The notes under the pieces are model-generated. The model had not been told where the DNA came from. It did not search any database and was given only the letters and a program-made list of their open reading frames with translations. 64,000 nt of DNA from Pseudobdellovibrionaceae bacterium (GTDB lineage Bacteria; Bdellovibrionota; Bdellovibrionia; Bdellovibrionales; Bdellovibrionaceae). The DNA is taken from the NCBI GenBank assembly GCA_019637915.1, contig JAHBUV010000001.1, forward strand, positions 806,001-870,000, in the 5' to 3' direction. Within the stretch, counting starts at the first letter, position 1. Every line of letters starts with the position of its first letter. Made by a program: the position numbers and the translations under genes. Shown in pieces: positions 57,325-59,763 of this stretch.

Positions 57325-58125
57325 ATGAATCAACCCCACTCCACCCCTTTCGACCAGCAACGTCCCATCCCCGGCGTGAAGAACATCATCGCGGTCAGCT
57401 CCGGCAAGGGCGGCGTCGGCAAGAGCACGGTGTCCGTGAACCTCGCGCTGGCGCTCTCCAAAAAAAACAAAGTGGGATTGCTTGACGCCGACATCTACGG
57501 CCCGAGCCTGCCCCGCCTCACTGGGACTTTGAACCAGAAACCTGTCATATCGCAGGATCAGAAGCTCGAGCCCCTCGTCCGCCACAACGTCAAACTGATG
57601 AGCATCGGCTTCATCGTCGACGAGGGCGCCGCCGTCGTCTGGCGCGGTCCCATGCTCTTCAAAGCCATGGACCAGTTCCTGCGCGACGTGAAGTGGGGCG
57701 AACTCGATTACCTCATCATCGATCTGCCTCCGGGCACGGGCGACGTGCAGCTGTCGCTGGCGCAGAAAGTTCCCGTGGCGGGATCGGTGATCGTGAGCAC
57801 CCCTCAGAACATCGCCCTCGCCGACGTGAAAAAAGCCGTCGACATGTGGCAGAGAACGGGGGTTCCGCTGCTCGGCCTCGTCGAGAACATGGCGTGGATG
57901 CGCAACCCGGCGAACAACGAGAAGATCCAGCTCTTCCCGCGCGGCGAGATGGATTCCTACCTCGACGCCAAGGGACTGCCCAAACTCGTGCAGGTGCCCT
58001 TCGATCCGAGCGTCGGCCTGGCCGGCGAAGCGGGCGTGCCCGTCGTCGAAAGCCATCCGCAAGGCGAGGAAGCGAAGGCCTTCTTCACCCTGGCCGAACG
58101 CGTGCGCGAACTCGTTCCTTCATAA
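57325..58125 (+). CDS. Mrp/NBP35-type P-loop ATPase lacking CxxC
   Basis: A 266-aa MinD-like ATPase of the Mrp/ApbC family: GKGGVGKSTVSVNLA (deviant Walker A), DADIYGPSLPRL, DLPPGTGDVQLSL. Family members carry Fe-S clusters to target proteins using a CxxC after the ENM motif. Here that stretch is ENMAWMRNPANNEK and has no Cys, nor is there a DUF59 N-terminal domain. The ATPase motifs are complete, so cluster binding may be lost or supplied otherwise. AAAGGA precedes ATG 57325. Confidence 0.88.
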   Translation: MNQPHSTPFDQQRPIPGVKNIIAVSSGKGGVGKSTVSVNLALALSKKNKVGLLDADIYGPSLPRLTGTLNQKPVISQDQKLEPLVRHNVKLMSIGFIVDEGAAVVWRGPMLFKAMDQFLRDVKWGELDYLIIDLPPGTGDVQLSLAQKVPVAGSVIVSTPQNIALADVKKAVDMWQRTGVPLLGLVENMAWMRNPANNEKIQLFPRGEMDSYLDAKGLPKLVQVPFDPSVGLAGEAGVPVVESHPQGEEAKAFFTLAERVRELVPS

Positions 58126-58470
58126 TCTTTTAAAAAACGCCTGACTTCAGAACAGTCGACCCGCGTTTCGTCCCAGCCTGAGACAAGTGCGCGATATGAT
58201 TTGAGAATATCGACCATCACCCTTGTGGCCACGACCTTGGTCGGGTTAGCCTGTCCCTATCGCACCAAGGTCCGTACATGGAAGCTCTGGACCGGCGAAA
58301 AGGGAGGATCGGATGAGACGTCGGAAATTCGACCATCGCGACAAGTCACCGAAGTGAAGATGCGTCACCAGGATTGCAAAAGCGCCGGGTCCGTCCGGCA
58401 GCGAAATGACGGACATCAACGAAAACGATTGAACCAAAAATACAAAGGAGGTTCCTTCGAATAGTTTGAT
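58126..58470 (+). other. 345-base gene-free stretch before the c-di-GMP RNA
   Basis: No convincing gene. It contains several short inverted repeats: CGATAT/ATATCG (58194-58213), GGTCC/GGACC around 58270-58295, and a perfect GTGGCCAC. These could belong to a structured RNA but no known family was matched. A TTG-initiated 87-codon frame (58201-58464) has a lipobox-like LVGLAC but no ribosome-binding site. Near its end, AAAA-15 nt-TTCGAATA (58437-58463) weakly resembles a sigma28 promoter placing a start near 58471. Confidence 0.4.
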
Positions 58471-58489
58471 TCTTTAAGGATTCGTCCTT

Positions 58490-58577
58490 CCTTTGCCTCA
58501 AGGCAAACCGCGTGAAAGCGCGGGACGCAAAGCTAGAGGGGCTCACCGGGCAACCGAAGCCAGCCAGCTGCCAAAGG
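58490..58577 (+). promoter_or_regulatory. cyclic-di-GMP-I (GEMM-I) riboswitch aptamer
   Basis: P1 is CCTTTG (58490-58495) with CAAAGG (58572-58577). P2 contains the consensus GGCAAACC, a stem closed by a GAAA tetraloop (58514-58517) and then GGGACGCAAAGC (58522-58533), all matching the GEMM-I core. P3 follows with GGCT/AGCC and an inner CGG-GCAA-CCG hairpin. The tetraloop-receptor arrangement is as in known aptamers that bind one c-di-GMP. Confidence 0.9.
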
Positions 58578-58611
58578 TAATAGAGTCACCGGAGGAATAC
58601 TGAGGTGGACA

Positions 58612-58662
58612 ATGGAAGGAAAGATTCAAAAATATATCATGGATTGGTTTCATTCCCCTTAG
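58612..58662 (+). CDS. possible 16-codon ORF inside the riboswitch RNA
   Basis: ATG 58612 with GAGG 6 bases upstream opens a 16-codon frame (MEGKIQKYIMDWFHSP) ending at TAG 58662, between the aptamer and the terminator hairpin. The peptide would be small and amphipathic. It may be chance, since the RNA could be wholly non-coding; the good binding site is the only support. Confidence 0.25.
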   Translation: MEGKIQKYIMDWFHSP

Positions 58663-58763
58663 CCTGCGTGGTTTTTACGGAAGAATCCCGCAGGCACCTT
58701 ATAAGGACCTGAGAGCGAGGGGAAATTTTTTAAGAATCAGAAATCGTTGATCGATCATCGTTG

Positions 58764-58797
58764 AAACCCGCTGTCCACCAGCGGGTTTCCTTTTTTC
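58764..58797 (+). terminator. intrinsic terminator of the c-di-GMP RNA
   Basis: A perfect 10-bp stem (AAACCCGCTG and complement) with loop TCCAC is followed by CCTTTTTTCC. It is a strong terminator about 190 bases after the aptamer. Confidence 0.9.
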
Positions 58798-58825: not shown

Positions 58826-59116
58826 TCAGGGCGACCCGCCGTCCTTCGACGCGCGGTTCTTGTCGACGATGGCCACGATGATCAGGATGAAGGCCAGGAG
58901 CCGCAGCACGTAGATCGCGCTGCGGGCCTCGTACTCCTGAGGAGTGCCCATCAGCAGCAGGCGTTCCAGGGACATCAGCCAGAAAGCGACGGCGAACAGA
59001 AGGAGCAGACGGTCCCCCGTCCTCCGGTAGTACTTGTAAAAATACAGTCCGATCACCGCGCAGACCATGGTGATGGCGCCGAACAGGAAAAAGCCAAAAG
59101 GTGTCACCACAAACAT
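58826..59116 (-). CDS. small membrane protein, DUF5985-like
   Basis: A 96-aa protein with three membrane helices (FGFFLFGAITMVCAVIGLYF, LLLLFAVAFWLMSLERLLL, YVLRLLAFILIIVAIVDKNR). The YYRRTGDRLLLLFAVAFW pattern and LRLLAFxxIIxAIVDKNR ending match DUF5985. The start at 59116 is preferred to 59122 because AGGAG is 6 bases upstream of it. Last gene of the five-gene signalling operon, often paired with a second such protein. Confidence 0.75.
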   Translation of the reverse strand: MFVVTPFGFFLFGAITMVCAVIGLYFYKYYRRTGDRLLLLFAVAFWLMSLERLLLMGTPQEYEARSAIYVLRLLAFILIIVAIVDKNRASKDGGSP

Positions 59117-59125
59117 TCCCATCTC

Positions 59126-59383
59126 CTAGCTCGTCTCCCAAATGAAGCCGTACAACAGGATGCACAACCCCCCCAGGAGGACAAACGAACGCGGCAGGAC
59201 CAGATTGATCGTGGGTCCGGTCAAAAGATCCACGAACAGCATCACGTTGTTCAGGAAAATGGCGACGAAGCAGATCGTCGTCCACAGCAGGAAACGGCTT
59301 TTCGCCTTCATGTACGCGCGCCACTGCAAAAGGGCGCACACGCAACTCGTCAAAGCGCAAAGGATGTAAATGAGATACGACAT
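59126..59383 (-). CDS. small membrane protein, DUF5985-like
   Basis: An 85-aa protein with three hydrophobic helices (LIYILCALTSCVCALLQW, LLWTTICFVAIFLNNVMLFVD split over two, FVLLGGLCILLYGFIWE). RAYMKAKSRFLLW and NNVMLFVDL match the second member of DUF5985 pairs. ATG 59383 with AGAGG 7 bases upstream; in-frame start codons at 59386 and 59389 also exist. It overlaps the winged-helix gene's stop region. Confidence 0.72.
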   Translation of the reverse strand: MSYLIYILCALTSCVCALLQWRAYMKAKSRFLLWTTICFVAIFLNNVMLFVDLLTGPTINLVLPRSFVLLGGLCILLYGFIWETS

Positions 59384-59385
59384 CA

Positions 59386-59759
59386 TCAATCCTCTTTCCT
59401 GATCTTGAAGGCGTCTGCGAAAGACCGGATGGACGGGTCCACCGGCGATTCATAAATAAACCCGATAATGGTCACCCGTCGACTGGAATATTGAGAGGCG
59501 AGTTCGCCCACGGTCTCCCGCAAAGAAGGGGTTTTCGGGGCGTAACTGTACGAGGCCCCCGCCCCTTCGGCCTGCAACAACCCGAAGCTCGCGAGGGCCT
59601 CAAGATGGTGGGTCGCGATGGTGGGGTTGCTGCGCAACTCGCGGCTGACCTCCTCCGCGGACCAGGGCCGGTCCTCGCGCGAGCGCAGGAGAAGCAGGAC
59701 CTCCAGGCGCCCGACGGAATCGATGTAACGGCTGATGAACCTCTTCATTTCCTCTTCGG

Positions 59760-59763
<4 letters not shown>
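59386..59763 (-). CDS. winged-helix transcriptional regulator-like protein
   Basis: A 125-aa protein with a winged helix at residues about 10-75 (RLEVLLLLRSREDRPWSAEEV, then SNPTIATHHLEALASFGLLQ, SYSYAP as wing). The C-terminal about 45 residues are helical and extended (SSRRVTIIGFIYESPVDP). Probably a DNA-binding regulator, though a protein-binding winged helix cannot be excluded. Start overlaps the stop of the upstream kinase gene (ATGA). Confidence 0.75.

Follow-up and report, generated by a model that had tools for sequence, protein, structure and literature searches.

A c-di-GMP-I RNA of merRNA type from a GC-richer relative of Bdellovibrio, with candidate micro-ORFs on both sides of its aptamer

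Short translated ORFs within small structured RNAs are known from dual-function small RNAs and from leader-peptide (uORF) RNAs. An RNA at the locus described here shares this layout, with translation predicted, and differs from them in that a metabolite aptamer is added and no main ORF is regulated. Compared with the c-di-GMP-I (GEMM-I) riboswitches of family RF01051, it has an aptamer above the gathering score with the invariant core, while no conventional gene is controlled and micro-ORFs flank the aptamer on both sides. The closest described system is the merRNA of Bdellovibrio bacteriovorus HD100 (Karunker et al. 2013, PMC3627812), whose abundance in attack phase roughly equals that of all mRNAs combined. 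According to that paper, the merRNA riboswitch is followed by no conserved ORF, and merRNA was not found outside Bdellovibrio; the sponge role that it proposed for the RNA was stated speculation resting on abundance and ligand affinity (PMC3627812).

In the window, by which we mean the whole 64,000-nucleotide stretch analysed from a Pseudobdellovibrionaceae bacterium, a covariance-model search places an RF01051 match at 58492-58575 on the plus strand (66.4 bits, E 8.7e-11; gathering score 35), and a whole-genome search returned this single copy in the 3.32-Mb source genome. The initial annotation had read a GEMM-I core from the letters and proposed an RF01051 search as a check; the search bears it out, and GGCAAACC (58502-58509), the GAAA loop (58514-58517), GGACGCAAAGC (58523-58533) and P1 (CCTTTG/CAAAGG, 58490-58495/58572-58577) all lie where it placed them. 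On folding, a 338-nt region was more stable than 100 of 100 shuffles (z -4.4). Judged from its sequence, the aptamer is real and is predicted to bind c-di-GMP. The genome encodes four GGDEF domains, which indicate c-di-GMP synthesis and a possible supply of ligand.

A 3,782,950-bp genome that we took as HD100 likewise holds a single RF01051 match, at 1073868-1073951 on the minus strand. This match lies inside merRNA, since the published 445-nt RNA spans 1073741-1074185 on that strand (PMC3627812). In the source genome as in HD100, mrp precedes the aptamer in the same orientation, separated from it by 370 nt in the window and 452 nt in HD100. The two loci are further alike in having a conserved leader, a P0 helix, two short ORFs (sORF1 and sORF2) at matching positions and the first terminator hairpin. 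They differ in that the genome here is GC-richer (window 60%, HD100 locus 51%), the first terminator has a decayed U-tract, a second terminator is present, and the ORFs are longer (14 versus 12 codons for sORF1 and 16 versus 14 for sORF2). With an aptamer RNA at the matching locus and with conserved flanks, the locus is, by sequence comparison, an orthologue of Bdellovibrio merRNA, and the suggestion in the initial annotation of a merRNA-type RNA beside mrp in a GC-richer relative holds.

Because this is a genuine merRNA orthologue, the kind of RNA is already known. The novelty lies in its conservation as a single copy across the order, together with conserved micro-ORFs that oppose the non-coding label. 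In RF01051 searches of the family, the aptamer was present once in each of 59 out of 66 genomes (among those of high quality, in 50 of 53) and in 20 of 20 genera, and it occurred once per genome in 89/141 genomes of the order and 91/144 of the class. On these matches, the range of merRNA is wider than Bdellovibrio and the 2013 statement is revised; such conservation makes merRNA a core feature of the group. Massive attack-phase-specific expression like that of merRNA may occur in the source organism too, where a promoter-like block is conserved.

That block, CCTTGGTC-N4-TAGCCT, lies at 58235-58252 (+), with the -10-like hexamer TAGCCT at 58247-58252. It recurs in 18 loci from several genera, compared with 2 in reversed controls, and its HD100 counterpart is ACTTTGGTCGAGCTATCCT / CTTTGGTCGAGCTATCCT. 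By its mapped ends, the HD100 RNA extends 234 nt upstream of the aptamer and about 127 nt beyond it. Judged from the HD100 5' end and the promoter-like block, the transcript is expected to start at about 58259-58268, some 210 nt further upstream than the initial annotation had put it. Its boundaries of 58471-58797 were thus too narrow: the mapped HD100 transcript and the conserved elements point to about 58260 to 58695/58796. An ORF of 87 aa at 58201-58464 was rejected as spurious, having no Pfam match and beginning before the expected transcript start.

At the 3' end, the terminator-1 hairpin (58662-58695, +) is homologous to the HD100 transcript end, and its stem carries compensatory changes on both sides in an alignment of 18 family members. 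The U-tract that follows (58696-58706) has decayed here to ACCUUAUAAGG; a same-genus relative (L102) keeps CACTTTTTT. Terminator 2 (58763-58796, +) has 11 pairs, 7 of them G-C, and then CTTTTTT. The initial annotation was correct that the RNA has its own terminator, strong by form at 58763-58796, but there is a second, and the homologue of the HD100 end is the one at 58662-58695. A terminator scan gave 4 terminator-like sites overall, against 3.5 in shuffles. Comparison with relatives led us to reject terminator 2 as the transcript end and to regard it only as a backup; in the source genome, with the terminator-1 U-tract decayed, termination probably falls to it. The RNA would most likely be about 440-540 nt long and independently transcribed; it has a single genomic copy and one c-di-GMP-I aptamer.

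The gene upstream, mrp (57325-58125, +), encodes an Mrp/NUBPL-type P-loop ATPase (Pfam PF10609, E 1.2e-91) and lies outside the RNA. In 44 of 89 loci, HD100 included, mrp precedes the RNA in the same orientation, which would suit a standard riboswitch acting in cis on a conventional gene, either one downstream reached by readthrough or mrp itself with the aptamer as a 3'UTR element. This is very improbable: mrp has the opposite orientation in 3 of the 89 loci and in 42 does not occur within the flanks that were fetched, the next large ORF 3' of the RNA is oriented towards it in 63 of 83 relatives, and a 5' end of its own was mapped for the HD100 RNA (PMC3627812). In the window, too, the minus strand carries the next large ORFs. 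Two adjacent small DUF5985 proteins are encoded at 58826-59389 (-), beside an HTH regulator (59386-59763) and hybrid histidine kinases.

Between the promoter-like block and the aptamer lies sORF1 (58313-58357, +), whose 14 codons read MRRRKFDHRDKSPK before the stop and which is preceded by a Shine-Dalgarno (SD) sequence, AGGGAGG, at 58301-58307. The HD100 counterpart, MRTHEHHDDELK and a stop, has 12 codons and falls within the mapped transcript, at about 1,074,121-1,074,082 on the minus strand. We detected sORF1 in 62 of 89 loci (43/59 in family f1, 7/8 in f10, 11/15 in f4 and 1/1 in f2) and did not find it in 27; as controls, neither the reverse complements nor 880 shuffles yielded any. Substitutions were scored between sister sequences, in 21 pairs that did not overlap and whose members had equal lengths, with the expectation obtained by placing the same changes at random. 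They fell at codon positions 1, 2 and 3 in the proportions 31/30/73 (n=134), and 69 of the 134 were synonymous where 38.7 +- 4.8 were expected. With the last five codons, which had been used in the search, left out, 43 of 96 were synonymous (24.2 +- 3.9 expected), and the identical test showed no synonymous excess in frames +1 and +2 or in flanking 42-nt stretches. Starts (ATG, GTG, TTG) and stops (TGA, TAG, TAA) are swapped among relatives. A synonymous bias in one frame, an SD, and a conserved start and stop are what is looked for in a micro-ORF, and together they are strong evidence, at the level of sequence, for the predicted translation of sORF1 under protein-level selection.

The downstream micro-ORF, sORF2 (58612-58662, +), has 16 codons, MEGKIQKYIMDWFHSP and a stop that adjoins terminator 1. 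Its SD, CTGAGGTG at 58600-58607 (+), sits inside a short CACC..GGTG hairpin and takes the forms GAGGUG, GGAGUG and GCGGUG in relatives; HD100 has a 14-codon version, MEGTNTYKDWFHSP and a stop, at about 1,073,832-1,073,788 (minus strand). With the start picked by homology or SD position and not by frame, the frame from the start to a conserved TTTCATTCCCC end is intact in 51 of 55 scored family loci and broken in three or four genomes. Length changes inferred on the RNA tree point the same way, 22 of 25 events being multiples of 3 (p = 2.3e-8 versus one third), and the SD-ATG is retained although start position and length vary. The synonymous bias of sORF2 is not significant (26/99 versus 20.4 expected, p = 0.09), and the ORF is absent from family f4, though P0-like pairing persists there. 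The "no downstream gene" of the initial annotation holds for conventional genes, with the next ORF convergent in most relatives, but it overlooked this conserved 16-codon ORF; and its view that only structured RNA and a terminator accompany the aptamer gives way to two micro-ORFs with signs of reading-frame selection, the 14-codon one having been missed as well. The frame constraint on sORF2 also departs from the "no conserved ORF downstream" by which merRNA was described. As the published HD100 RNA departs from it in the same way, it is the description of merRNA, and not the membership of this locus, that changes.

Within sORF2 lies a nearly invariant 17-nt block, GATTGGTTTCATTCCCC (58641-58657, +): the only exception in an alignment of 18 sequences of the family, drawn from several genera, is a changed first base in one of them. 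The block is conserved at synonymous sites and all codon positions too, which suggests a second, RNA-level constraint. An RNA-level role would overlap or replace coding in sORF2, because the tail is conserved at synonymous sites. One such role would be that of a trans-acting antisense RNA with the invariant GAUUGGUUUCAUUCCCC as seed, for which conservation at all codon positions across genera speaks. It is very improbable: no conserved complementary site turned up in the six genomes searched, and matches besides the locus itself are mostly 3-mismatch ones in unrelated places. From its sequence, sORF2 appears to be a genuine micro-ORF under constraint that shares its stretch with an RNA element, and is less certain than sORF1.

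The start codon of sORF2 is overlapped by the 3' strand of P0, GGAAGGA (58614-58620, +), whose covarying partner is UCCUUCC (58485-58491, +) in the 5' flank of P1. Across 24 distinct family rows, P0 pairs in 95% of cells, and one of its pairs occurs as C-G, A-U and U-A. Both partners have changed in 7 cells, compared with 1.9 in shuffles, and every slid register scores lower. Support for P0 is real but narrow, because only one pair varies widely. RNAalifold independently predicts P0, stacked on an anti-P1 hairpin (UUUGCC-UCAA-GGCAAA), and pairing of each flank with its own tail was better than with permuted flanks in 25 groups (p about 0.014). A small hairpin, AAGGA-UUCG-UCCUU (58476-58489, +), read from the sequence and the alignment, overlaps the P0 5' strand. 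A pairing of the aptamer P3 (GCUAnAGGGG:CCCCUUAGC) with the tail was rejected; it is good in some genomes, has a mean z of only -0.84 and is lost in others.

Forcing the aptamer P1 in the models cut the probability of P0 from 0.32 to 0.05 on average, with lower values in 38 of 42 sequences. We propose that the aptamer may place the adjacent sORF2 under ligand control. The modelled accessibility of the sORF2 start is nearly equal between the two states (0.39 versus 0.37, p = 0.05), so the direction of the switch is no more than a proposal.

The most likely reading, at about even odds, is that the locus is a c-di-GMP-sensing mini-mRNA of micro-ORFs, possibly also a ligand buffer, and not a purely non-coding RNA. 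Transcription would begin at a promoter of its own behind mrp, and sORF1 would be translated into a 14-residue peptide. The outer helices of the aptamer (P1, P0 and anti-P1) would meet the start of sORF2, which ends at the terminator. With c-di-GMP bound, P1 (CCUUUG/CAAAGG) would form, taking the CC used by P0 and also the UUUG used by the anti-P1 hairpin. P0 would then weaken and the accessibility of the sORF2 start could change, probably so that translation rises. At a level of transcription like that in HD100, the RNA would also bind much c-di-GMP, purpose or not. A riboswitch with a micro-ORF as its sole target would be a rare arrangement. More tentatively, and at somewhat worse than even chances, the top "non-coding" RNA of attack-phase Bdellovibrio would itself be a c-di-GMP-controlled mini-mRNA that encodes conserved micro-peptides, one or two in number and 7-24 residues long, and would possibly be the predator's most heavily transcribed coding unit, conserved across Bdellovibrionales. 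Peptides so made would be among its most highly transcribed products before attack. Our literature search found no Bdellovibrio ribosome-profiling data.

There are at least two other ways to view an aptamer RNA with short ORFs. The RNA could be a non-coding reservoir, abundant enough to soak up c-di-GMP in attack phase and release it on prey contact, with the sORFs incidental. The abundance of merRNA in HD100, which matches that of all attack-phase mRNAs (PMC3627812), would fit such a use, as would the finding that nearly every genome of the family has one aptamer and lacks a conventional target gene for it. A pure sponge, however, needs neither the strong coding signature of sORF1 nor the frame constraint on sORF2, and one aptamer per long RNA would make an uneconomical one. 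We know of no measured binding or c-di-GMP change, and we consider a reservoir unlikely, though the likeliest of the rival readings. The sponge model is neither backed nor ruled against here. The model has stood as speculation for merRNA function since 2013, and the micro-ORFs flanking the aptamer make the role of merRNA directly testable.

Alternatively, the sORFs could act in cis, loading or stalling ribosomes and thereby protecting the RNA or tuning its fold, with the peptides themselves inert. Proline stalling of ribosomes is established, and proline-rich C-termini stand at the stops across families: sORF1 ends in DPPPK or DPPPE in other families, or in PPK, and sORF2 in SP. The stop of sORF2 also adjoins the terminator, and an orphan SD without a start codon is present in most loci. 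In the window this is AAAGGAGGT (58444-58452, +), a near-perfect SD-like sequence between sORF1 and the aptamer; [AG]AGGAGG occupies this position in 58 of 88 loci, with ATG or GTG next in only 2. The conservation of sORF1, however, covers residues away from the stop, as its synonymous excess without the last five codons indicates, and in the window sORF1 ends in DKSPK, which is not a strong stall motif. We regard such a cis role as rather improbable, though less so than the riboswitch and antisense roles considered above; the preferred reading remains the c-di-GMP-sensing mini-mRNA.

A short-leader version is seen in family f6 (L008, L025 and L100), where the aptamer comes directly after the promoter. 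A micro-ORF with a perfect AAGGAGG SD and an ATG runs into the terminator there, in an arrangement that resembles sORF2, and the terminator loop of L008 and L025 contains 9 or more C.
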